A stretch of DNA of 64,000 bases from Pseudomonas oryzihabitans (lineage in GTDB: Bacteria; Pseudomonadota; Gammaproteobacteria; Pseudomonadales; Pseudomonadaceae), in NCBI RefSeq assembly GCF_014522265.1, contig NZ_CP017024.1, positions 3,508,001 through 3,572,000 of the forward strand, given 5' to 3'. The translations under genes were made by a program, and so were the position numbers. This document shows, in pieces, positions 19,302-44,926 of the stretch. Positions within the stretch are counted from its first letter, which is position 1. Every line of letters begins with the position of its first letter. The notes under the pieces are model-generated. The model worked only from the letters and a program-made list of their open reading frames with translations, had not been told where the DNA came from and made no database searches.

Positions 19302-20618
19302 ATGTTCAACAAAGGATTAAAACAAGAACTGCAGCGTCTCCGCGAGCAGGTGGATTCCTTCAAGCGACTGAAGGCCGAGCTCGACGTCGAGATGATTGGC
19401 CTGGAGCTGGACGGCCAGGGCCGCGTGACCGCGGTGAACGCCAATTTCGAACAGGAAATGGGCCTGCGCGCCGCGGATTTGCTGGGTCGTCCGCTCCTGG
19501 ATCTGGTGCCGGCGCATGTCAGAAACCAGGAGTACAACCGTCGCCTGCAGCAGTGCCTGAGCCGCGGCGAGCCCTATAGCGGGGCGCTGCATCTCCTGCG
19601 TGGCGATGGCCGGGAAGCCTGGCTGAGAGGCATCCTGCACCCGTTCCACGACAGCCAGGGCCAGGTGACGCGCTTCCGACTGTTCTGCAACAACCTGACG
19701 AGAACCATCGAGACCTCGCGCGAGCACGAAAGCCTGCTCAAGGCGCTGCGCCGTTCCACGGCGGTCATTGAATTCAACCTCGACGGCGAGGTGCTCGACG
19801 CCAACGACAGATTCCTGCAGGCCATGGGCTATTCCCTGGCGCAGATCAAGGGCAAGCACCACCGGCTGTTCTGCGAGCCGGCCGAGGCCAACTCCGAGGC
19901 CTATCAGCAATTCTGGGCGCGCCTGCGTCGCGGCGAATTCGTCGTGGATCGCTTCAAGCGCCTGGATGCCCATGGCCGCGATGTCTGGCTGGAAGCCTCC
20001 TACAACCCGGTGATCGACGCCCATGATCGCCTGTACAAGGTGGTCAAGTTCGCCACCGTGATCACCGATCAGGTCCAGCAGGAACAGGCGGTGTCCGAGG
20101 CCGCCAGCGTAGCCTTCGAGACCTCCCGGCATACCGACGACACCGCCCGCAAGGGTGCGGCGGTGGCGCAGCAGACGGTGGAGGTGATGCGCGCCCTGGC
20201 CACCCAGATGCAGGAGGCGGTGAAGGGCATCGAGGCGCTGGACAACCAGTCCCAGGTGATCGGCACCATCATCAAGACCATCAGCGGCATCGCCGAACAG
20301 ACCAACCTGCTGGCGCTCAATGCCGCCATCGAGGCGGCTCGGGCCGGCGAGCAGGGCCGCGGCTTCGCCGTGGTGGCCGACGAGGTCAGGCAACTGGCCT
20401 CGCGCACCAGCAAGGCGACCGAGGAGATCGTCGGGGTGGTGCAGCAGAACCAGCAACTGGCCGGCGAAGCCGTGACGGTGATCGAGAACGGCCGGCGTCA
20501 GGCCGAGCAGGGCCTGGAGCTGGCGGGGCAGGCCGGGCAGGTGATCGTGGAGATCCAGGATGGCGCCCAGCGGGTGGTCGGCGCCGTGGGGCGCTTCGCC
20601 CGCCAGCTGTCGAACTGA
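19302..20618 (+). CDS. bdlA: Soluble PAS-PAS methyl-accepting protein, BdlA-like
   Basis: 438 residues with no membrane segment. PAS1 spans about residues 25-125 ([26 protein letters not shown]) and PAS2 about 145-265 ([26 protein letters not shown]). An MCP signalling domain follows, with the conserved hairpin tip [19 protein letters not shown]. This order and length match P. aeruginosa BdlA, a cytoplasmic receptor-like protein controlling biofilm dispersion, and also Aer-type energy sensors. The start at 19302 follows the FliA-like promoter; the upstream frame from 19254 is rejected. The C-terminus is short and lacks a CheR pentapeptide. Confidence 0.85.
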
Positions 20619-20627
20619 TCCCGCACG

Positions 20628-20671
20628 CTGAATGCACAACGGCAACCCCAGGGTTGCCGTTGTGCATTCAG
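20628..20671. terminator. Bidirectional hairpin between convergent genes
   Basis: A perfect 21-bp inverted repeat (arms 20628-20648 and 20651-20671) with a two-base loop lies between the bdlA-like stop and the stop of the DszC-like gene. T runs are absent on both sides, but the stem is exceptionally stable. Confidence 0.75.
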
Positions 20672-31060: not shown

Positions 31061-32236
31061 GTGGAACACGCCTCTTCTTCGCCCTCGCTCGTCGACTTTA
31101 CCTTCACCCCTGCATTGCTCGGTGCCTGCGGTACCGGCGCGATCCTGTTCGTGGGCGGCGTGACGCCGACCACCCTGGCGCTGAGTGCCACCCAGGTGGT
31201 GCTTGCCGCCGGTCTGGGCTTCTGGCAGCTGCGTCGCGCCCAGGCGCGCCACGCCGAGCGCGCCGCCGACCAGGCCGTGAGCCAGAGCCCGGCCAGCGGT
31301 CGGGACGAGGCACTCGAAGCCCTCTGCGTGGCGGTACTGCCGGTATGGTCCGAGCAGATCGAAGCGGCGCGGGCCCACACCGAGCAGGAAATCGTCAGCC
31401 TGACCAGTCGCTTCGCCGAACTGGCCGACCGCATCCACAGCGTCGCCGGCGCCGATCATGGCGGTGGCGATCGCCTGGTCAATCTCATGGCCAGCAGCCA
31501 GAACCAGCTCGACGGCATCCTGCACTCGCTGCGCGAGGCGCTGTCGAGCAAGGGCGCGCTGCTGGACGAGGTCAACGGCCTGGCCGGTCTGACCGAACAA
31601 CTCAAGAGCATGGCCAAGGACGTCGGCGACGTGGCGCGCCAGACCAACCTGCTGGCCCTCAACGCCGCCATCGAAGCCGCCCGGGCCGGCGAAGCCGGGC
31701 GCGGTTTCGCGGTGGTCGCCGACGAGGTGCGCAAGCTCTCCACCCTGTCCGGCGATACCGGACAGAAGATCGGCGAAACCGTGGAAACGGTGAATGGCGC
31801 CATTGCCCGCACCCTGGAACTGTCGCAGCTCCACGCCGAACGCGACACTGGCACCCTGAACCAGTCCGGCGAGACCATCGAGCAGGTCATCGGCGCCTTT
31901 GGCGGCACCACCCGTGACGTGGTCGAGCGCAGCGATGCCCTGGCCGACAACGCCGCGGCCGTGGGCGGCGCCATTGCCGAGGTGCTGGTCGCCCTGCAGT
32001 TCCAGGATCGCGTCAGCCAGATGCTCGGCCACATCCGTGACGACCAGGCGCGCCTCGAGCGCCTGGTGATCGACCGTCGCACCCTGGCTGCCAGCGGTCA
32101 GCCGCTGCCGACCCTCGACACCCGTGGCTGGCTCGCCGAGCTGGCCCGCACCTACACCATGGCCGAGCAGGTCGCCGTGCACCACGGCAAGCGACCGGCC
32201 GCCGCCGCTGCCGAATCCGATATCACGTTCTTTTAA
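31061..32236 (+). CDS. Membrane-anchored MCP-like protein with CheZ-like motif
   Basis: 391 residues from a GTG at 31061; no clear ribosome-binding site. Two hydrophobic segments (about 12-33 and 38-56) anchor it with almost no periplasmic loop. A receptor-type signalling hairpin follows (about 130-280) with tip [20 protein letters not shown]. Behind it comes [15 protein letters not shown]: Asp316-x3-Gln320 matches the catalytic Asp-x3-Gln of CheZ (FQDLTGQ). A flexible Ala-rich tail ends in ESDITFF, which resembles the acidic/hydrophobic CheY-docking peptide at the CheZ C-terminus. It has no ligand domain or HAMP. It is the first gene of the operon, 11 bases before cheY. Reading it as a receptor-linked CheY phosphatase is inference; annotation pipelines would call it an MCP. 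Confidence 0.8.
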
Positions 32237-32639: not shown

Positions 32640-32945
32640 ATGAACGATGCCGTTCGTACCCGCTTGCCCATTACCGGGCCGCTGACCATCTACACCGCGG
32701 CCGACAGCAAGCCGCTGCTGATGGAGCCCCTGACCGCCGGGGTCACCGTGGCGCTGGAACTGGCCGAGGTCGATGAATTCGATTCGGCCGGGCTGCAGTT
32801 GCTGCTGCTGGCCCACCGGGAGGCGCAGCGTTTGGGCGGCAGCCTGGAGCTGGTCGATCCCAGCCCCGCCGTCACCGAACTGCTGGAGCTGGCAGGTCTT
32901 GCCGACTTCTTTACCGCGGCCGCCGCGGAAGGTGTTGCCGCATGA
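32640..32945 (+). CDS. STAS-domain protein of the chemotaxis operon
   Basis: 101 residues, STAS fold (anti-anti-sigma-like): ITGPLTIYTAADSKPLL, VALELAEVDEFDSAGLQLLLLA, GGSLELVDPSPAVTELLELAGLADFF. Ser49 in the DSAG motif corresponds to the phosphorylated serine of SpoIIAA (DSSG), so a phospho-switch is possible. No RsbW-type kinase is in the window. The start at 32640 has GGAGG at 32627-32631, preferred over the ATG at 32619. It overlaps cheA by four bases. Similar small STAS proteins occur in some alternative che operons; their role is unclear. Confidence 0.9.
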   Translation: MNDAVRTRLPITGPLTIYTAADSKPLLMEPLTAGVTVALELAEVDEFDSAGLQLLLLAHREAQRLGGSLELVDPSPAVTELLELAGLADFFTAAAAEGVAA

Positions 32946-35113
32946 ACATGGACGAGATTCTCAAGACCTTCATCGCCGAGAGCGAGGAATTGCTGCAGCA
33001 GATGGAAGCCGCGCTGCTGCAGATCGAGCAGGCACCGGATGATGTCGAGCTGATCAATGCCATCTTCCGCGCCGCCCACACCATCAAGGGTTCGGCCGGT
33101 CTGTTCGGTCTGGACCATGTGGTGGCCTTCACCCATGTCGCCGAAAGCGTGCTCGACCGGATCCGCAGCAACGAGCTGGCCTTCGACGAGACCCTGTCGG
33201 CGCTGTTCCTTGAGGTCTGCGACCACCTCAACGGCCTGATCGCCCGGGTGTCGTCCGGCAGCGAGCCGGAGCCCGACTTCCAGGCCGCCGGCGCCGTGCT
33301 GGTGCAGCGCCTGGAGCACTATCTGCAGCCGAGCGCCAAGGCGGCCCAGCCGGTCGCTGCCGCCCGTACCCTGGCGGCACCGGTCGATGGCGTGGCCGCC
33401 GGCCACTGGCACCTGTCGCTGCGCTTCGGTCCGGACATGCTGCGCAACGGCATGGATCCGCTGGCCTTCGTCCGCTACCTCAACAGCTTTGGCCGCATCG
33501 TCAACATCGTCACCCTGACCGATGCCATCCCGGCCGCAGCGGACATGGATCCGGAGACCTGCTACCTGGGCTTCGAGGTCGCCTTCGACAGCGACGCCGA
33601 CAAGGCGACCATCGAGGCGGCCTTCGAATTCGTCCGCGAAGACAGCCAGATCCGCATCCTGCCGCCGCACAGCCGCAGCAGCGACTACTGCCAGCTGATC
33701 GACGACCTGGCCGAGGAAGACCTGCGCCTGGGCGAGATCCTGGTGCGCTGCGGCACCCTGACCGCCACCGAGCTGGACGAGGTGCTGCGCCGCCAGGCCG
33801 ATCCGGCCACCCCGCGCCAGCCTATTGGCGAAGCCCTGGTGGAAGCCCAGCTGGTCAATCCGCCGGTGGTGGATGCGGCCCTGAACAAGCAGCGCAAGAT
33901 CAAGGAGCAGCGCGCGCCGGCGGGCGAAGGCCAGTTGATCCGCATCGACGCCACCAAACTCGACCAACTGATCGACCTCATCGGTGAGCTGATCATCGCC
34001 GGTGCCGGGACCCAGCTGATCGCCCAGCAGAGCGGCCTGGCGGCCCTGGTGGAATCCACCGGGGTGCTGTCGCGCCTGGTGGAAGAGGTGCGGGATACCG
34101 CCCTGACCCTGCGCATGGTGCAGATCGGTACCACCTTCAACCGCTTCCAGCGGGTGGTCCGCGACGTCTCCAAGGAAATCGGCAAGGACATTGCCCTGCG
34201 CATCAGCGGTGGCGAGACCGAACTGGACAAGACCGTGGTGGAAAAGATCGGTGATCCGCTGACCCACCTGATCCGCAACGCCATGGACCACGGCATCGAA
34301 TCCGCCGAGCTGCGCCTGGCGCGTGGCAAGCCGGCCCAGGGCACCGTGGGGCTGAACGCCTATCACGAGGCCAGCAGCATCGTCATCCAGGTCACCGACG
34401 ACGGTGGCGGTCTGTCGCGCGAGCGCATCCTGCGCAAGGCGACCGAGCGCGGCCTGATCGCCGAAGGCCAGGTGCTGGCCGACAAGGACGTGTTCAACCT
34501 GATCTTCGAACCGGGTTTCTCCACCGCCGAGCAGATCAGCAACCTGTCCGGTCGCGGCGTCGGCATGGACGTGGTGAAAAAGAACATCACCGCCCTGCGC
34601 GGCAGCGTCGACCTCACCAGCGAGGAGGGCCGCGGCACCACGGTGACCATCCGCCTGCCGCTGACCCTGGCGATCATCGACGGCTTCCTCATCGGCGTCG
34701 GCAAGGCCACCTACGTGGTGCCCCTGGAAGCGGTGGAGGAGTGCATCGAGCTGACCGAGGCGGCCAGTGTCCAGGCCAACGGCAACGACTACCTCGACCT
34801 GCGCGGCGAGGTGCTGCCGGTGCTGCGCCTGCGTCAGCTGTTCACCATCGAGGAAGCCCCGCCGCGGCGGCAGAACGTGGTGGTGGTGCGCTATGCCGGC
34901 CAGCGCGCCGGCCTGGTGGTCGATCAGCTGCTCGGCGAATTCCAGACCGTGATCAAGCCGCTCGGTCCGCTGTTCGGCCACAACCGCAGCCTCGGTGGTT
35001 TCACCATCCTGGGTACCGGTGCCGTGGCGCTGATCCTCAACGTGCCCGGCCTGATTGGCGAAGCCGCGTCCACCGGCACCGCTGCTCCAGTCCTCGCACC
35101 CGTGCTGGCCTAA
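32942..35113 (+). CDS. cheA: Chemotaxis histidine kinase CheA
   Basis: 723 residues. P1 Hpt domain with phospho-accepting His46 ([10 protein letters not shown]); a P2-like CheY-binding region (about 155-245). Then an unusual segment (about 262-320) holds two related motifs, [20 protein letters not shown] and [21 protein letters not shown]3 dimerisation starts near 330, followed by P4 kinase (N box [14 protein letters not shown]1 DDGGG, G2 GRGVGMDVV) and P5 CheW-like (about 590-700). The start ATG overlaps the STAS stop (ATGA). The inserted repeats resemble the two-helix LGEIL-type module seen at the N-termini of GspE/PilB-like ATPases; that comparison is from memory. Confidence 0.95.
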
Positions 35114-35157
35114 CTGAACCGACCCGACTTGACCTGACCGACAAGGATTTAGAGTCC

Positions 35158-37593
35158 ATGACCGTTACCAAACGCATGTCCCTGCTGGTCCTCTCTGCGC
35201 TGCTGGGGATCATTCTCCTGGCAGGGCTGGCCTACTACCAATTGCACCAGGTCTTCGAACGGGCCAATTTCGGCAACAACGATACCGTGCCGGCCATTCT
35301 GGGCATCGACGCCGTCGACGCCCATTCCGCCGATGTCATCACCAACATCTATCGCCATCTCGCCGCCGACGGTGATGCCGCCACCCAGAAGGCCGAAAAG
35401 GAACTCAGCGAATCGCAGCGGCTGACCGATGAGGCGCTCAAGGCTTACGAGGGGCAGATCTCCGACGACACCGACAAGCGTCTATGGGAAGACGACAGGC
35501 AGGCGATCGCCGCGCTCAACCAGCTCGCGGCCAAGGTGATCCCGCTGTCGCGCGCCAGCCAGGATGACGAGGTCAAGCGGCTGCTGGGCGAAAACCAGGA
35601 GATCATCACCCACGTGGGTGATGTTCTCGACGCCCATCGCCTCTATAACCAGAAGCTGGGAACCGAGCAGTCCAACCTGGCGGAGGGCACGCTCAATCAG
35701 GCCACGCTGCTGTCGGTCGGCATCTCCGTGGCCACCCTGCTACTGATCGGCCTGCTCGGCTTCTTCATCACCCGCAACCTGCTGCGTCAGCTCGGCGGCG
35801 AGCCGGCCGAGGTGGCCAAGGTCGCCAACCGCACCGCCGCGGGCGACCTGCCCGACGATCTGCAGCTGCGCGCCGGCGACGATTCCAGCCTGATGGCCGC
35901 CATGCAGCGCATGGTGGTGACCCTGCGCGGTCTGGTGCAGGAGATGAGCACCATGGCCAGCGAGCATGATCGCGGCGAGACCGACAAACGCATCCCGCTG
36001 GAGCGCTTCCAGGGCACCTTCCGCAACGTCGCCGAAGGCGTCAACGCCATGGTCGCCGGTCACCTGAGCGATTCGGCCAAGGCCATGGCCTGCGTCAAAA
36101 GCTTCGGCGAAGGCGATCTGGCCGCGCCGCTGGAGCGTTTCCCCGGCAGGAAGGCGGTGATCAACGACAACCTTGAGCAGGTGCGCGACAACATCCAGCT
36201 TCTGGTCGCGGAGATGGTGCAGCTGTCCGCCGCCCATGATCGCGGCGAGACCGATGCCCGCATTCCCGTCGAGCGCTTCCAGGGCACCTTCCGCGGCATG
36301 GCCGAAGGCGTCAACGCCATGGTCGCCGGCCACCTGAGCGATTCGGCAAAGGCCATGGCCTGCGTCAAGCGCTTCGGCGAAGGCGATCTGTCGGTGGCGC
36401 TGGAACGCTTCCCCGGCCAGAAGGCGGTGATCAACGACAACCTCGAACAGGTCCGCGGCAACATCCAGCGCCTGGTCGAAGACGCCAATCTGCTGAGCCA
36501 GGCGGCCATGGCCGGTCGTCTCGACACCCGCGCCGATGCCAGTGCCCACCAGGGCGATTTCCGCCGCATCGTCGCCGGCATCAATGGCACCCTCGACGCC
36601 ATCGTGGCGCCGGTCAACGAAGCCATGGGCGTGATGGCCGGGCTCTCCCAGGGCGACCTGAGCCGCACCGTACGCGGTGACTACCAGGGGCAGTTGCTGG
36701 AGCTCAAGGAGTCGATCAACGGCACCGTGGGCAAGCTGAACCAGATCATCGGCGACGTGCGCCTGTCGGCCGACTCCCTGGCCAGCGCCTCGGAAGAGAT
36801 CTCCGCCACCGCCCAGAGCATGAGCCAGGCCAGCACCGAACAGGCGGCCTCGGTCGAGGAGACCAGCGCCAGCGTCGAGCAGATGTCGGCCTCCATCACC
36901 CAGAACACCGAGAACGCCAAGGTCACTGACGGCATGGCCGGCAAGGCCGCGCGGGAAGCCGGGGAGGGCGGTCAGGCGGTCGGCGAGACCCTGGTGGCCA
37001 TGAAGACCATCGCCGACAAGATCGGCATCGTCGACGACATCGCCTACCAGACCAACCTGCTGGCGCTCAACGCCGCCATCGAAGCGGCCCGTGCCGGCGA
37101 GCACGGCAAGGGCTTCGCCGTGGTGGCTGCAGAGGTCCGCAAGCTGGCCGAACGCAGCCAGGTCGCCGCCCAGGAAATCGGCACCGTGGCCAAGAGCAGC
37201 GTGGCCCTGGCCGAACGCGCCGGCACCCTGCTGGAGCAGATGGTGCCGTCCATCAGCAAGACCTCCGACCTGGTGCAGGAAATCGCCTCGGCCAGCGAAG
37301 AACAGAGCAGCGGGGTGAGCCAGATCAACGGCGCCATGCTGCAACTGAGCCAGATCACCCAGCAGAACGCCTCGGCGTCCGAAGAACTGGCTGCCACCGC
37401 CGAGGAAATGAGTACCCAGGCCGAGCAGCTGCAACGCCTGATGGGCTTCTTCAATACCGGCGAAGGCCGGGTGGTACAGGACCTGGAACGCGCGCTGGAG
37501 GCCTCGCGGCCCAAGGCCATGCAGGTCCCGGGCAAGGCCCTGCGTACGGGTACCTCGGGCGTGCCTGACGGCTACGTCTCCTTCGAATCCTGA
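35158..37593 (+). CDS. Methyl-accepting chemotaxis protein with tandem HAMP-like repeats
   Basis: 811 residues. TM1 is about 7-26, the periplasmic helical ligand domain about 27-183 and TM2 about 184-206. A HAMP follows, then two near-identical units of about 85-100 residues ([21 protein letters not shown], [28 protein letters not shown]). A further HAMP-like stretch precedes the signalling hairpin (tip [22 protein letters not shown]). The C-terminus ends GYVSFES, a CheR/CheB-type pentapeptide. DNA at 36430-36845 is identical to 38643-39058 in the next receptor. The chosen start gives a normal TM1; the much longer open frame from 34741 runs over cheA and is not real. No ligand is assignable. 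Confidence 0.94.
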
Positions 37594-37640: not shown

Positions 37641-39815
37641 ATGACCGTCATCAAGAAAATGCTGCTGCTGGTGCTGTCCGCATTATTGGGCATCCTGGTG
37701 CTGGCCGGCACCGGGCAATACGAAATCGACCAGGTGTTCCAGGCAGCCAACTACGGCAACGACAACACCGTTCCCAGCCTCAAGGCGCTCGGCGAGGTCA
37801 ACGACAGCCGCTCCGACTACGTGGTGGGCATCTATCGCCACGTGCTGTCGACCAGCGCCGAAACCATGACCACCGTCGAGCAGGACCTGGCCGCGGCCAA
37901 GGAGCGCATCGGCCAGAATCTCGGCAAGTACGAGACGCTGGTCTCGGACGACCGCGACCGTGGCCTGCTGGTCGCCGATCGCGCCGCCTTTACGGCGCTG
38001 TTCAGCCTCGGCGACCAGGTCATCGCCCTGTCGCGGCAAAATCGCAACGAAGACGCCCAGGCCCTGATGCGCAGCCGCACCGACGTGATGCTGGCGATCA
38101 ACAAGGCCCTCGACGAGCACGTAGGCTACAACCAGACCCTGGCGCTGCAAGGTGTGCAGGTCGCCCAGAAGACCAAGGTCGAGGCCACCTGGCTGGCCCT
38201 GGGCATTGCCCTGGCGACCCTGCTGGCGGTGGCCCTGCTGGGCTTCTTCATCACCCGCAATCTGCTGCGTCAGCTGGGCGGTGAGCCCGCGGCGGTGGCG
38301 ACCCTGGCCGGCTGCGTGGCCGCCGGCGATCTGCCGGACGACATCAAGCTGCGCGACGACGACAAGACCAGCCTGATGGCGGCCATGCAGAACATGGTCA
38401 CCACCCTGCGCAGCCTGATCAGCGAAATGAGCAGTATGTCGGCTGCCCATGACCGCGGCGAAACCGTGGTGCGCATTCCGGCCGAGCGCTTCCAGGGCGC
38501 CTATCGCAACATGGCCGAAGGGGTCAACGGCATGGTCGCCGGCCACCTGAGCGATTCGGCAAAGGCCATGGCCTGCGTCAAGAGCTTCGGCGAAGGCGAT
38601 CTGTCGGTGGCGCTGGAGCGCTTCCCCGGGCAGAAGGCGGTCATCAACGACAACCTCGAACAGGTCCGCGGCAACATCCAGCGCCTGGTCGAAGACGCCA
38701 ATCTGCTGAGCCAGGCGGCCATGGCCGGTCGTCTCGACACCCGCGCCGATGCCAGTGCCCACCAGGGCGATTTCCGCCGCATCGTCGCCGGCATCAATGG
38801 CACCCTCGACGCCATCGTGGCGCCGGTCAACGAAGCCATGGGCGTGATGGCCGGGCTCTCCCAGGGCGACCTGAGCCGCACCGTACGCGGTGACTACCAG
38901 GGGCAGTTGCTGGAGCTCAAGGAGTCGATCAACGGCACCGTGGGCAAGCTGAACCAGATCATCGGCGACGTGCGCCTGTCGGCCGACTCCCTGGCCAGCG
39001 CCTCGGAAGAGATCTCCGCCACCGCCCAGAGCATGAGCCAGGCCAGCACCGAACAGGCCGCCTCGGTCGAGGAGACCAGCGCCAGCGTAGAGCAGATGTC
39101 GGCCTCCATCGCCCAGAACACCGAGAACGCCAAGGTCACCGACGGCATGGCCGGCAAGGCCGCGCGCGAGGCCAACGAAGGTGGCGAAGCGGTGGGTGAG
39201 ACGCTGGTGGCCATGAAGACCATCGCCGAGAAGATCGGCATCGTCGACGACATCGCCTACCAGACCAACCTGCTGGCGCTCAACGCCGCCATCGAAGCCG
39301 CCCGCGCCGGCGAGCACGGCAAAGGCTTCGCCGTGGTGGCCGCCGAGGTGCGCAAGCTGGCCGAACGCAGCCAGGTCGCCGCCCAGGAAATCGGCACCGT
39401 GGCCAAGAGCAGTGTGGCCCTGGCCGAGCGCGCCGGGTCACTGCTCGACGAAATGGTACCGTCCATCAGCAAGACCTCCGATCTGGTACAGGAAATCGCC
39501 GCGGCGTCCGAAGAACAGAGTAGCGGAGTCACTCAGATCAATAGCGCCATGCTGCAACTCAACCAGATCACCCAACAGAACGCCTCGGCCTCGGAAGAGC
39601 TGGCCGCGACCGCCGAAGAAATGAGCGGTCAGGCCGAGCAGCTGCAGCGCCTGATGGGCTTCTTCCACACCGGCGATGGTCGTGCGGTCCAGGACCTGGA
39701 GCGTGCCATCGAGCAGACGCGCCCGGCCGCGAGCCGTACGGCCCAGCCGACCCTGCGTCGTCCCCAGATGGCCGCGGGCGGCCTGCCGGACGGTTACGTC
39801 CGCTTCCCGGAGTAA
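37641..39815 (+). CDS. Methyl-accepting chemotaxis protein, second receptor
   Basis: 724 residues. The build is as in the previous receptor but with one copy of the HAMP-like unit instead of two. TM1 is about 7-25, the ligand region is helical (4-helix-bundle texture, unrelated in sequence to the first receptor) and TM2 is about 181-205. The signalling hairpin is nearly identical to its neighbours. It ends GYVRFPE. It shares 416 identical bases with receptor 1 and 239 identical bases (39198-39436) with receptor 3 (41435-41673). The ribosome-binding site is weak and the gene lies just after the intra-operon terminator. Confidence 0.94.
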
Positions 39816-39822
39816 TGGCTTC

Positions 39823-40326
39823 ATGACTGCCCTGACCCTTGGCGACATCGCCCACGAACACCTTGGCCATCAGCACCTGACCTTCGTGGTCGACGGTGAG
39901 ACCTATGCGGTGGATACCCTCGCGGTGCGCGAGATCATCGAGTTCGGCCAACTGACCCAGGTCCCGCTGATGCCGGCCTGCATTCGTGGGGTGATCAATC
40001 TGCGCGGCGCGGTGGTCCCGGTGGTGGATCTGGAGGCCCGCTTCGGCGGCCGACCGACCCGGGTCGGCCCGCGGACCTGCATCGTGATCTTGGAAGTGTG
40101 CGCCGACGAAGACACCCAGGTGCTGGGCGTGGTGGTGGATGCGGTGAGCGAGGTGCTGGAAATCGCCGCGGCGGACATCCGTCCGGCGCCGGCCTTTGGC
40201 AGTCGCCTGGCGCCGCACTTCATCGCCGGCATGGTCAAGTCCGAAGACGGCTTCCTGACCCTGCTCGACGTGGCCCAGGTCCTCGACGTACAGGAACTGG
40301 CGAACCTGGCCCAGGCCGCCAGCTGA
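39823..40326 (+). CDS. cheW: Chemotaxis coupling protein CheW (first copy)
   Basis: 167 residues, CheW fold: [24 protein letters not shown], then [24 protein letters not shown] and [12 protein letters not shown]. It couples receptors to CheA. The ATG at 39823 lies seven bases after the receptor stop. The ribosome-binding GGAG overlaps the end of the receptor gene. Confidence 0.95.
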
Positions 40327-40408
40327 AAGACCCCGCATTGCCATGGGCGACGGTAACCGGCGCCTCTTAAACGAAGCAGTTTCAATCGGCGCCGGAGGCG
40401 CTTCCACC

Positions 40409-42064
40409 ATGCTGAACACACTTCGCGTCTCGACCAAGCTGGCGATCGGCTTCGGGGCTGCCATCCTGATGCTGCTGCTGGTCATGGGTGTCGCCCTGCT
40501 GAACATGGGCACCATGAAGGACTCGGCCGACAACATGTCGAAATTCCGTTTCCCCATGACCGTCCAGGCCAACACCCTGGTGCGTAACACCCTGGACAGC
40601 GGCCGCCTGATGCGCAACCTGCTGCTGCTGGACGATGAGCGCGCCCTGGCCAAGACCAAGGAAGACATCGCCAAGGTCCGCTCCGGCAACGCAGAGATAC
40701 TCGCCGATCTGCAAAAGAAGATCGTCAGTGAGGATGGCAAGCAGAAGCTGGCCGCTGCCACGGACGCGCGTCAGCGCCTGCAGGACAAGTACGGCGAATT
40801 CTTTCGCCTGCTCGACACCGACCGTGGCCAGGCCCGGGACTATCTGCTGAATGTCTTCGCGCCCAACAACAACGAGCTGGTCGCCGCCCTCGGCGCCCTG
40901 AACGATCTGCAGGCCCAGCGCATGCAGGAAGCCGGTGAAGCGGCGACCGACGCCTACGTCGATGCCCGCAACCTGATGCTGGTGATTGGCGCGGTGGCGA
41001 CCCTGATCGCCGTCCTGCTCGGCTATCTGATCACCCGCAGCCTGATCCGGCAGCTGGGTGGCGAACCGGCCTATGCCGCCGAGGTGGTGCAGCGCGTCGC
41101 CCGCGGCGATCTGAGCGTCGAGGTGGCGACCCGCGAAGGCGACACCACCAGCATGCTGGCCTCCGTGCGTACCATGACCACCACCCTGGCGCAGATCATC
41201 AGCGACGTGCGCAGCTCGGCCGATGGCCTGGCCAGCGCCTCGGAAGAGGTCTCGGCCACTGCCCAGAGCATGAGCCAGGCCAGCACCGAGCAGGCCGCCT
41301 CCGTCGAGGAGACCAGCGCCAGCATCGAGGAGATGTCGGCTTCCATCGCCCAGAACACCGAGAACGCCAAGGTCACCGACGGCATGGCCGGCAAGGCCGC
41401 GCGTGAAGCGGACGAGGGCGGCCAGGCCGTGCGCGAGACGCTGGTGGCCATGAAGACCATCGCCGAGAAGATCGGCATCGTCGACGACATCGCCTACCAG
41501 ACCAACCTGCTGGCGCTCAACGCCGCCATCGAAGCCGCCCGCGCCGGCGAGCACGGCAAAGGCTTCGCCGTGGTGGCCGCCGAGGTGCGCAAGCTGGCCG
41601 AACGCAGCCAGGTCGCCGCCCAGGAAATCGGCACCGTGGCCAAGAGCAGTGTGGCCCTGGCCGAGCGCGCCGGATCGCTGCTGGCCGAGATGGTGCCCTC
41701 CATCAACAAGACCTCCGACCTGGTGCAGGAAATCACCGCGGCCTCCGAAGAGCAGAGCGCCGGGGTCGAGCAGATCAATGGCGCCATGCTGCAACTGAGC
41801 CAGATCACCCAGCAGAACGCCTCGGCGTCCGAAGAGCTGGCCGCCACCGCGGAGGAGATGAGCGGCCAGGCCGAGCAGCTCCAGCAGATGATGGAATACT
41901 TCACCCTGAGCGGTTCGCCGGTGGCCCAGCAGGTCGCCCGTCCCGGCGCCAAGCGCTCGGGGTCGAGCCTGGCCGAGCGCGCCTCGGCGCTGATCGACTC
42001 GCCCCGTCGCGCGCCCCGTGGCAGCGTGCCGGCCGGTTTCGCCCGTTTCGAGGAGCAAGCCTGA
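40409..42064 (+). CDS. Methyl-accepting chemotaxis protein, third receptor
   Basis: 551 residues with a conventional layout. TM1 is about 10-32. A 4HB-type periplasmic domain (about 33-188) follows, rich in charged helices ([29 protein letters not shown]). TM2 is about 190-212. One HAMP precedes the signalling hairpin, and the tail ends [14 protein letters not shown] at 40394-40398 supports the ATG at 40409. The stop TGA overlaps the start of the next cheW by one base. Confidence 0.94.
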
Positions 42065-42534
42065 TGCTATTGCGCCAGTTTCTGACCTTTCAGCTCGCCG
42101 GTGACCTCTACGGCGTGAACACCGGCTGCGTGCGGGAGATCATCGAGTACGGCGCGGTCACCACGGTGCCCATGCTGCCGCCGGCCATCCGTGGCGTCAT
42201 CAACCTGCGCGGCGCCGCCGTGCCGGTCATGGACCTCGGCGTGCGCTTTCGCAACGAGGTGACCGAGACCTCCCGCCGCAGCTGCATCGTGGTGCTGGAG
42301 ATCCAGGTCGACGGTGGCCCCCAGGTGTTCGGCATCGTGGTGGACGCGGTCTGCGAGGTGCTGGAGATCGGCGCCGACGGCATCGAGCCGGCGCCGCGCT
42401 TCGGCGCTTCGATCCGCACCGATTTCATCCTCGGCATGGCCAAGCAGGGTGCCGGTTTCGTCATCCTGCTCGACATGGATCGGGTGCTGGGCGCAGACGA
42501 TCTCGCCCAGCTCGCCGCCATGACGGCTGCCTGA
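42064..42534 (+). CDS. cheW: Chemotaxis coupling protein CheW (second copy)
   Basis: 156 residues, CheW fold ([57 protein letters not shown]). The start overlaps the receptor stop (TGATG). It is clearly related to the first copy but diverged, so the two may serve different receptors or array positions. Confidence 0.95.
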   Translation: MLLRQFLTFQLAGDLYGVNTGCVREIIEYGAVTTVPMLPPAIRGVINLRGAAVPVMDLGVRFRNEVTETSRRSCIVVLEIQVDGGPQVFGIVVDAVCEVLEIGADGIEPAPRFGASIRTDFILGMAKQGAGFVILLDMDRVLGADDLAQLAAMTAA

Positions 42535-42544
42535 GTCGCGAACC

Positions 42545-43348
42545 ATGGAACTCCCCGCGCTGACCGACAGCGAATTCCGCCAGTTTCGCAGCTTCATCTT
42601 CCGGGTCGCCGGCATCAGCATGTCCGATGCCAAGCGCCCGCTGGTGAGCGGTCGCCTGGCCAAGCGCGTGCGCCAGCGCGGCACGCCCAGCTACGACGCC
42701 TATTTCCAGCTGATCCAGCGCGACCAGGCGGAATGCCAGATGGCGGTCGATCTGCTGACCACCAACGAAACCTATTTCTTTCGGGAGCCCAAGCACTTCG
42801 ACTTCCTGCGCGAGCAGGTGCTGCCGAACTGGGAAAGGCGCCAGCCGCTGCGGCTGTGGAGCGGCGCCTGCTCCTCGGGCGAGGAGCCCTATACGCTGGC
42901 CATGACTCTGGCCGAAGGACTGGGCGAGCGGCCCTGGGAAATCGTCGCCTCCGACCTCAGCACCCGGGTGCTGGCCAAGGCGCGCAATGCCCAGTATCCG
43001 CTCGCCGAAGCCGAGAACATCCCGCCGGCGCTGTTGCGGCGCTACTGCTTCAAGGGCGTGGGCGACAACGACGGCACCTTTCTGGTGGATCCGCGCCTGA
43101 CCGCGCGGATCGCCTTTCGCCAGATCAATCTGAACAATTCGCTGCCGGAGCTGGGCACCTTCGACATCATCTTCCTGCGCAACGTGATGATCTACTTCGA
43201 CGTGCCCACCAAGCGCCAGGTGGTGGCCCGCCTGGTCCGCCACCTGCGACCCGGGGGCTACTTCTTCGTCAGTCATTCCGAGAGCCTCAATGGGGTGACC
43301 GACGCCCTGAAAATGGTCAGTCCTTCCATCTATCAACGTCCGCTCTAG
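42545..43348 (+). CDS. cheR: Chemotaxis methyltransferase CheR
   Basis: 267 residues. The N-terminal helical domain (FRQFRSFIFRVAGISMSDAKRPLVSGRLAKRVR) is followed by a SAM-binding domain with LWSGACSSGEEPYTLAM and FDIIFLRNVMIYFD, and TNETYFFREPKHF. It methylates receptor glutamates. The receptors of this operon carry C-terminal aromatic pentapeptides that could tether it. Confidence 0.96.
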   Translation: MELPALTDSEFRQFRSFIFRVAGISMSDAKRPLVSGRLAKRVRQRGTPSYDAYFQLIQRDQAECQMAVDLLTTNETYFFREPKHFDFLREQVLPNWERRQPLRLWSGACSSGEEPYTLAMTLAEGLGERPWEIVASDLSTRVLAKARNAQYPLAEAENIPPALLRRYCFKGVGDNDGTFLVDPRLTARIAFRQINLNNSLPELGTFDIIFLRNVMIYFDVPTKRQVVARLVRHLRPGGYFFVSHSESLNGVTDALKMVSPSIYQRPL

Positions 43349-43350
43349 CC

Positions 43351-43860
43351 ATGGCAGCCGCGCCGGAGCTGTTTCTGCGTCCAGGCGAATGGTATTTCGG
43401 CCAGGGCGAGGTGCGGATCCGGACCATCCTGGGCTCCTGCGTGTCCTTCGTCTTCTGGCACCCGCGGCGCCGTCTCGGCGGCATGACCCATGCGCTGTTG
43501 CCCACGCGCCAGCGCGCCGTGCCCGGCGCGCCCGCCGACGGTCACTATGTCGACGAATCCCTGCAGCTGCTGCTGGGGGCGATCGCCCGCCACGGCGGTG
43601 ATCTGCCCGGTTACCAGGTGCACCTCTACGGCGGCGGCAACATGTTTCCCCAGCTCCTGCGCGATCGCGTCCGCAGCATCGGCGACGTCAACGTCGAGGC
43701 GGCGCTGGCGCAGCTGGCCCAGGCCGGTATCCATTCGGTGCGGACCCATGTCCGCGGCGCCGGCCATCGCAAACTGTCCCTGGACCTCGTCGACGGCCGG
43801 GTGCTCATGCAACAGGTGGAGCTACCCTATGTTCCGCCGCTTACGAGAATTACTCCATGA
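43351..43860 (+). CDS. cheD: Chemoreceptor deamidase CheD
   Basis: 169 residues with catalytic Cys30 in TILGSCVSF, His47 in GGMTHALLP and a conserved YGGGNMF segment. It converts receptor glutamines to glutamates and can stimulate CheC-type phosphatases in other bacteria. It starts two bases after cheR and overlaps cheB by four bases (ATGA). Confidence 0.94.
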
Positions 43861-44926
43861 ACAAGATCAAGGTCCTTATCGTCGACGACTCCGCCGTGGT
43901 GCGGCAGGTGCTCGCCCAGAGTCTCGCGGAGGATCCGGCCATCGAGGTGCTGGGGGCGCCGCCGACCCGGTGTTCGCCCAGGACAAGATGCGCAAGCAGT
44001 GGCCCGACGTCATCGTGCTGGACGTGGAGATGCCACGCATGGACGGCATCACCTTTCTCAAGAAGATCATGGCCGAGCGTCCGACCCCGGTGGTGATCTG
44101 CTCGACCCTGACCGAGAAGGGCGCCGCCACCACCCTGCAGGCCATGGCCGCCGGGGCGGTCAGCATCGTCACCAAGCCCCAGGCCAATCTCAAGCAGTTC
44201 CTCAAGGACGCCTCGGACGACCTCACCAGCGCGGTCAAGGCCGCCGCCCGGGCCAATCTCAAGCGCCTGGCGCCCCGTGGCGTGCCGGTGGTGCCGACGC
44301 CCAAGCTCAGCGCCGACGCCATCCTGCCGGCCGGCGGCAGCCCGGCCATGGCGCGCACCACCGAGCGCATCGTCGCCCTGGGTACCTCCACCGGCGGGAC
44401 CCAGGCCCTGGAAGCGGTGCTGACCTCACTGCCACGGGTCTGCCCGGGCATCGTCGTGGTCCAGCACATGCCCGAGCGCTTCACCGCCGCCTTCGCCGAG
44501 CGCCTGGATCGCCTCTGCGAGCTGGAGGTGCGCGAAGCCCGGCATGGCGATCGGGTCCTGCCGGGGCGGGTGCTGATCGCCCCGGGCGGTCGCCACATGC
44601 TGCTCAAGCGCAGTGGTGCCCAGTATCAGGTGGACGTGGTCGACGGTCCGCCGGTGAGTCGCCATCGCCCCTCGGTGGATGTGCTGTTCCGCTCGGTGGC
44701 GCGGGCCGCCGGCAGCAATGCCCTGGGTATCATCATGACCGGCATGGGCGATGACGGCGCCCGCGGCCTCAAGGAGCTGCGTGACGTCGGCGGCCGGACC
44801 CTCGGCCAGGACGAAGACAGTTGCGTGGTCTACGGCATGCCCAAGGAAGCCATGAAGCTCGGCGCGGTGGAGCAGGAAATCGGCCTCGGCCAGATCGCCG
44901 CCGCCATTCTCAAAGGTGGGGTCTAG
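43857..44926 (+). pseudogene. cheB: CheB methylesterase, one-base frameshift in receiver domain
   Basis: The frame from the ATG at 43857 reads [31 protein letters not shown] and then loses homology. The rest ([28 protein letters not shown] through the catalytic esterase domain, [31 protein letters not shown]) continues in another frame to 44926. Changing the length of the G run at 43952-43956 rejoins the two parts into about 356 residues. As given, the protein would end near 44096. Either the strain has lost CheB in this pathway or the run length is a sequencing error. Confidence 0.88.

Follow-up and report, generated by a model that had tools for sequence, protein, structure and literature searches.

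Within the window, by which we mean the whole 64-kb stretch of DNA that was analysed, a gene with a GTG start on the + strand (31061..32236) encodes a receptor-like protein of 391 residues that carries a CheZ-type motif and is referred to here as MCPZ. After a gap of 11 bases comes cheY, a single receiver domain (PF00072; 32248..32619), then a gene for a STAS domain protein (PF13466; 32619..32945) and cheA (32942..35113), with Hpt, H-kinase_dim, HATPase and CheW domains, both of these genes overlapping the one upstream and all three lying on the + strand. The + strand genes further downstream were named from sequence: three ordinary receptors (open reading frame bounds rather than starts, 34741-37593, 37641-39815 and 40343-42064), cheW (39676-40326), a second cheW (42064-42534), cheR (42545-43348), cheD (about 43351-43860) and cheB (about 43857-44926). 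The cheB frame is broken near 43960, its first ~30 codons lying in a different frame, reflecting either an assembly error or a pseudogene. Elsewhere in the window, at about 20163-20633 (G000:C1:3528163-3528633), a receptor gene has a TGA inside its MCP-domain frame.

No cheZ was found in the 64-kb window, where the best tblastn match had an E of 3.6. The genome is one 5.05 Mb contig with 59 matches to the receptor domain, and it holds one canonical CheZ (4970129-4970767) beside another cheY, 1.4 Mb from the window. We therefore rejected the idea of an organism without CheZ; it is from this operon only that cheZ is missing. The preliminary description of an operon without cheZ stands in so far as MCPZ heads a cheZ-less cheY-STAS-cheA operon, but it does not extend to the genome as a whole. 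Pfam domain searches found neither CheC nor CheX in this genome or in MCPZ. Chemosensory class F8 is recognised by class-specific CheA, CheB and CheR models and 34H receptors, and the window cluster may belong to class F7 or F8. A class F8 system has been described in Pseudomonas syringae (PMC11253619).

The MCPZ protein and the placement of its motif

Hydropathy places two membrane helices at residues about 13-33 and 36-57 (31097..31231, + strand), and the structure model has helices at 13-32 and 36-74. Because the membrane helices lie only a few residues apart by both methods, MCPZ has no periplasmic sensor domain. Beyond the MCP signalling domain, Pfam places no ligand-binding or other sensor domain over cut-off in MCPZ; such a domain is not universal among receptors. 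The signalling domain (PF00015) scores 88.9 bits against a cut-off of 34.6, and the chemoreceptor hairpin occupies residues 132-291 (31454..31933, + strand) with its tip near residues 204-212, so that MCPZ belongs with the receptors both by the signalling-domain profile and by the hairpin fold. Two membrane segments and an MCP-like hairpin had been proposed from the letters of the sequence, and hydropathy, PF00015 and the model bear them out.

In the structure model a break at residues 288-294 is followed by a further helix, residues 295-344 (31943..32092, + strand), which carries the motif FQDRVSQ (32000..32020, + strand), with D316 at 32006-32008, R317 at 32009-32011 and Q320 at 32018-32020. 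The protein closes with the tail ESDITFF (32213..32233, + strand). Motif, catalytic-type residues and tail are all present in the open reading frame as first described, and the flexibility ascribed to the tail agrees with its disorder in the monomer model (pLDDT <50). Mean pLDDT in that model, whose pTM is 0.44, is 49 for residues 291-300, 73 for 311-320 and 91 for 331-340. Structure prediction of the protein alone locates the motif outside the receptor hairpin, on a helix that follows it. A helical-wheel calculation sets Q313, R317 and Q320 opposite the hydrophobic face and D316 at its flank only (96-122 degrees). With a period of 3.5 residues the angles from the hydrophobic face are 148 degrees for Q313, -161 for R317, 148 for Q320 and 96 for D316; with a period of 3.6 they are -178, -138, 162 and 122 degrees respectively.

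Conservation of the motif, the tail and the gene neighbourhood

The nearest named relative of MCPZ among the matches listed is L044 (Pseudomonas sp. 102515), which is 93% identical to it in alignment A2 and 97% over the C-terminal part; the remaining rows of that alignment are 32-55% identical. A scan seeded on LQFQDR[VAT][SDV]Q gave 80 loci from 572 confirmed relatives, among the matches listed. Because the seed is the motif, these loci are unfit to test it and were used for neighbourhoods and for other columns. Among the matches listed, cheY follows the gene immediately in 80/80 loci, cheA is present in 80/80 and STAS in 68/80. A single CheZ used as tblastn query (E<=1e-4) matched in 0/80 of the loci listed, which span 4.8-16.5 kb, and 45 of the 46 genomes examined through seeded loci, among the matches listed, have a CheZ over cut-off elsewhere. 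The CheZ elsewhere in the genome might also serve this CheY. A 98 kb plasmid of Aeromonas (L228, 5947-13158), non-mobilizable by its type, shows the same gene order, namely receptor-like protein, response regulator, STAS, cheA, receptor, cheW and receptor.

Relatives were also collected by three other routes. With the whole protein, motif included and not demanded, a search of 145 genomes from the order found 10 with a relative at E<=1e-30, and a hairpin model of residues 85-300 only gave 15 places in 13 of 299 genomes, own genome included in both. Selection by cheA gave 39 of 276 genomes and, besides our own, 29 loci: 14 with an MCPZ relative by tblastn, one (L217) with the tail only, and 14 without the protein within 1.5 kb. 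Among the last 14, seven have cheY, L220 is cut at cheY and six have no cheY match; the seven with cheY and no MCPZ relative are L212, where the cluster bears a sister protein, and the more distant L222-L227.

The hairpin and cheA routes make up a motif-blind set of 28 relatives, and all three routes together give 36, the query copy being excluded. D316, R317 and Q320 are each retained in 27/28 motif-blind relatives and the FF end in 26/28. Over the full 36, which are 27-49% identical to the query, D316, R317 and Q320 each stand in 35, Q313 in all 36, F314 and F391 in 35 each and the FF end in 34; L210 ends in IIMF. The final FF holds while I388 (21/36) and T389 (23/36) give way. In a set of 90 that is mostly motif-seeded (80/90), D, R and Q occur in 90/90 among the matches listed, and I388 and T389, which lie outside the seed, in 85/90 each, again among the matches listed. 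In MCPZ the conserved QF(Q)DR..Q patch is followed by a small helical part of the C-terminal region, itself conserved, by a linker that varies and by a hydrophobic end that is again conserved and nearly always FF. Neither burial of the motif in the signalling coiled coil nor its lack of conservation in orthologues, against which the preliminary description had set its reading, is seen in the sequences and the monomer model.

One relative (L183/L190, genome G428) keeps the hairpin with motif and tail both absent; at L190 (9831-10979) it sits in a remnant cluster retaining cheR and cheD. The 19 kb around L183 have no match to cheY, STAS or cheA, with only cheR and cheD being found. Genome G428 comprises 1.9 Mb, is listed as 100% complete, and searched as a whole gave no CheA or CheY of this cluster's type: its best matches are a single CheA, which aligns with part of the query at 38% identity and adjoins that genome's CheZ, and CheY at <=35%. 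In G037, the positive control, where the system is present, the figures were 51% for CheA and 73% for CheY. Single case though it is, this exception links the occurrence of motif and tail to that of this cheY and cheA.

Likeness to CheZ and the sister clade

The CheZ-wide signature has AXXF(Y)Q adjoining DXXXQ (PMC7750401). In MCPZ the DXXXQ pair is preceded by F(Y)Q as in CheZ, and the signature position A is A or S in 70/90 family members, among the matches listed. The pattern [FY]QDxxxQ occurs in 89/90 members among the matches listed and in 14/15 members (own copy in both), in 6/7 sister proteins and in 0/45 ordinary receptors. The latter control comprises L014-L043 from our own genome, 11 further receptor loci and the three window receptors, that is 45 rows of which 44 are distinct.

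We built a CheZ profile from 17 CheZ proteins, excluding the divergent L140-L143 and the G174 copy L144. It matches 88/90 family members, among the matches listed, with a median of 6.6 bits and a best score of all of 18.7 (L184). In motif-spanning alignments D-x3-Q falls on D-x3-Q in all 103 first-clade cases (90 + 13), in 4/5 sister-clade cases and in 0/1, the one spanning alignment from the 45 ordinary receptors. Unconstrained hhalign of the two profiles gave the same register (E 0.0068, probability 5.6%); with the motif stretch removed it gave E 0.072 and a different register. Among the window's open reading frames the profile's best score, 3.8 bits, is that of MCPZ itself, next to unrelated frames at 3.7 and 3.5.

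The Pfam CheZ model gave 11 matches at E<=1e-3 below cut-off in 65 genomes, and ten of these, assigned by contig position and open reading frame length, are family or sister proteins; the eleventh is a protein of 917 aa in G261. Against the PF04344 cut-off of 30.7 bits MCPZ gave no match and its best relative 25.5 bits, and the Pfam CheZ match that ranks second in the MCPZ genome (E 0.015) belongs to an ordinary receptor rather than to MCPZ. CheZ does not occur among the 50 VIA-align rows listed for MCPZ. Given the 3.8 bits, the hhalign probability of 5.6% and a receptor as second-best match, homology to CheZ is not established. The comparison of profiles proposed at the outset has delivered D-x3-Q in the CheZ register, but weakly and with a score far below the family cut-off. 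MCPZ may work like CheZ but, judged by its sequence, falls outside the CheZ family.

Divergent second CheZ proteins were seen at G160:C11 (L142), G178:C4 (L143) and G168:C28:144358-144918; each of the genomes concerned has a strong CheZ match as well. We considered whether two CheZ-less genomes, G296 and G261, depend on sister-like proteins and rejected this, as both have CheC and CheX.

A second clade of receptor-like proteins, consisting of P0002 (L145/L195; L195 5684-6967), L191-L194 and L197, carries QFQD[IV][IT]RQ and tails ending in IELF, VELF or IILF; L155 ends in IELF and has a degenerate motif. In L191, L192, L193 and L195 the gene comes immediately after a CheY match, and in L196, a putative member, a CheY lies about 1.2 kb upstream; none was seen beside the gene in L194 and L197. 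A tree of 73 hairpin regions, based on few columns, gives no order of the two clades: it groups the first-clade L011 with ordinary receptors, sets the three window receptors with the second clade on a very long branch, and leaves L183 among first-clade members at an unresolved fork.

A candidate CheY phosphatase and its place among known systems

Taken together, the sequences and the monomer model make MCPZ a candidate, in our judgement probably correctly so, for a membrane-anchored CheZ-type phosphatase of the adjoining CheY, built on a receptor scaffold. The reading in the preliminary description is partly supported: conservation of motif and tail, the CheZ register, predicted exposure and a modelled place outside the hairpin speak for it. 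The tail, which on that reading might dock on CheY helix 4, is [DE][IV]TFF-like and does not resemble the DDLLxSLGF type of CheY-binding peptide that CheZ has, and the profile score keeps MCPZ out of the CheZ family.

On the side of the partner, D54, N56, E86 and K106 are invariant in 81/81 CheY sequences, among the matches listed. The acid of CheZ pairs with the active-site lysine of CheY (PMC3035606), and we dropped a salt bridge between the motif acid and CheY Lys92 because that source names the active-site lysine. In P. syringae CheY2 bound FliM and CheY1, from another chemosensory cluster, did not (PMC11253619). CheY1 may be the CheY of the F8 cluster there. The mechanism we envisage, with equivalences of numbering between MCPZ and CheZ and in CheY that are our own assignment, would run as follows. 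The receptor hairpin, which could in principle join a CheA/CheW array, would hold MCPZ there. The flexible tail would first capture CheY-P, the active site of which would then dock on the motif helix, where D316 would pair with K106 of CheY, as D143 does in CheZ, and Q320 would orient the attacking water, as Q147 does. With MCPZ beside the kinase, termination of the signal would be local and possibly set by receptor state.

The main rival is binding without dephosphorylation: helix patch and tail would form a docking or sequestration site that keeps CheY, or CheY-P, at the array. We think this unlikely, but conservation, cheY adjacency and absence of the motif from a genome that has no such cheY require CheY binding only, and an acid at CheY 88-90, present as D or E in 79/81 sequences among the matches listed and possibly opposite R317 (a hint from the sequence), could pair with that arginine. 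Against it, the conserved residues are the catalytic pair, with F-Q before D as in CheZ, and pure docking should allow other residues at 320, where the Q of 35/36 relatives stands. We regard it as highly improbable that D-x3-Q, as part of a coiled coil, resembles the CheZ motif merely by accident. A bare D-x3-Q is no evidence because every one of the 45 ordinary receptors has one, at a mean of 3.8 each, and we rejected it as such; its fixed place in 35/36 relatives of such low identity, however, exceeds chance, and none of the 45 has the longer [FY]QDxxxQ.

MCPZ could also be an unusual array receptor, with its C-terminal helix serving packing or contacts with CheA, CheW, CheR, CheB or CheD and its tail a tether for adaptation enzymes. 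The full receptor hairpin speaks for this, as does the tethering of CheR in some receptors by an NWETF-like pentapeptide at the C-terminus (PMC2577667). NWETF has an aromatic second residue. The last five residues of MCPZ, however, lack the aromatic second residue, while the three window receptors carry GYVSF, GYVRF and GFARF at their C-termini. Q313, R317 and Q320 lie on the face opposite the hydrophobic one, and L190 has neither motif nor tail even though cheR and cheD adjoin. With these points against it, we consider the unusual receptor distinctly improbable.

If the phosphatase reading is right, it would concern bacteria with this second chemosensory system, in which the cluster has its own CheY and CheA and no recognised CheY phosphatase. 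MCPZ would be the missing off-switch, placed next to the kinase at the membrane, and the output, not the kinase, would be what a receptor-shaped molecule acts on. Counts of receptors would wrongly include such proteins, because both plasmid copies seen carry no annotation other than 'methyl-accepting chemotaxis protein'. A wider and more tentative idea, which we hold as a possibility rather than an expectation, is that receptor-built CheY phosphatases form a widespread overlooked class that ends signalling inside the arrays of cheZ-less clusters. This class may comprise at least two clades, with TFF-like and ELF-like tails and hundreds of first-clade loci, and the array may be a push-pull device if the activity is set by receptors. 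CheZ may descend from such a receptor helix or share an ancestor with it, and if this is true the origin of CheZ becomes a testable question. In the titles and abstract openings listed from the open-licence literature we found no description of a receptor-like protein with a CheZ motif, and we do not claim its absence from print. What would be new in this candidate phosphatase, as suggested by sequence and model, is the scaffold, on which a catalytic device that is already known would not have been expected.

With CheZ (PF04344) MCPZ shares F/Y-Q-D-x3-Q in a helix, a partner CheY encoded next door, and a linker followed by a short hydrophobic C-terminal end with a final F. It differs in its membrane anchor, its receptor hairpin and R317 after the catalytic D, all of which CheZ lacks, and in a [DE][IV]TFF-like tail in place of DDLLxSLGF. 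CheZ itself forms a dimeric four-helix bundle and speeds the dephosphorylation of CheY-P. Like chemoreceptors (MCP, PF00015) it has a hairpin with a conserved tip, a membrane anchor and a chemosensory operon, but it lacks a ligand-binding domain, adds a further conserved helix C-terminal to the hairpin and has a tail unlike the receptor pentapeptide. CheC, CheX and FliY likewise insert an acid and an amide side chain into the response-regulator site (PMC3035606), a device that MCPZ would share from within another protein family. A precedent in arrangement may be CheA3 of Rhodobacter, which belongs to its cluster and includes a phosphatase domain (PMC6829392, PMC2924250): there too a CheY phosphatase forms part of a component of the chemosensory cluster, of CheA type in Rhodobacter and, as we propose, receptor-like here.
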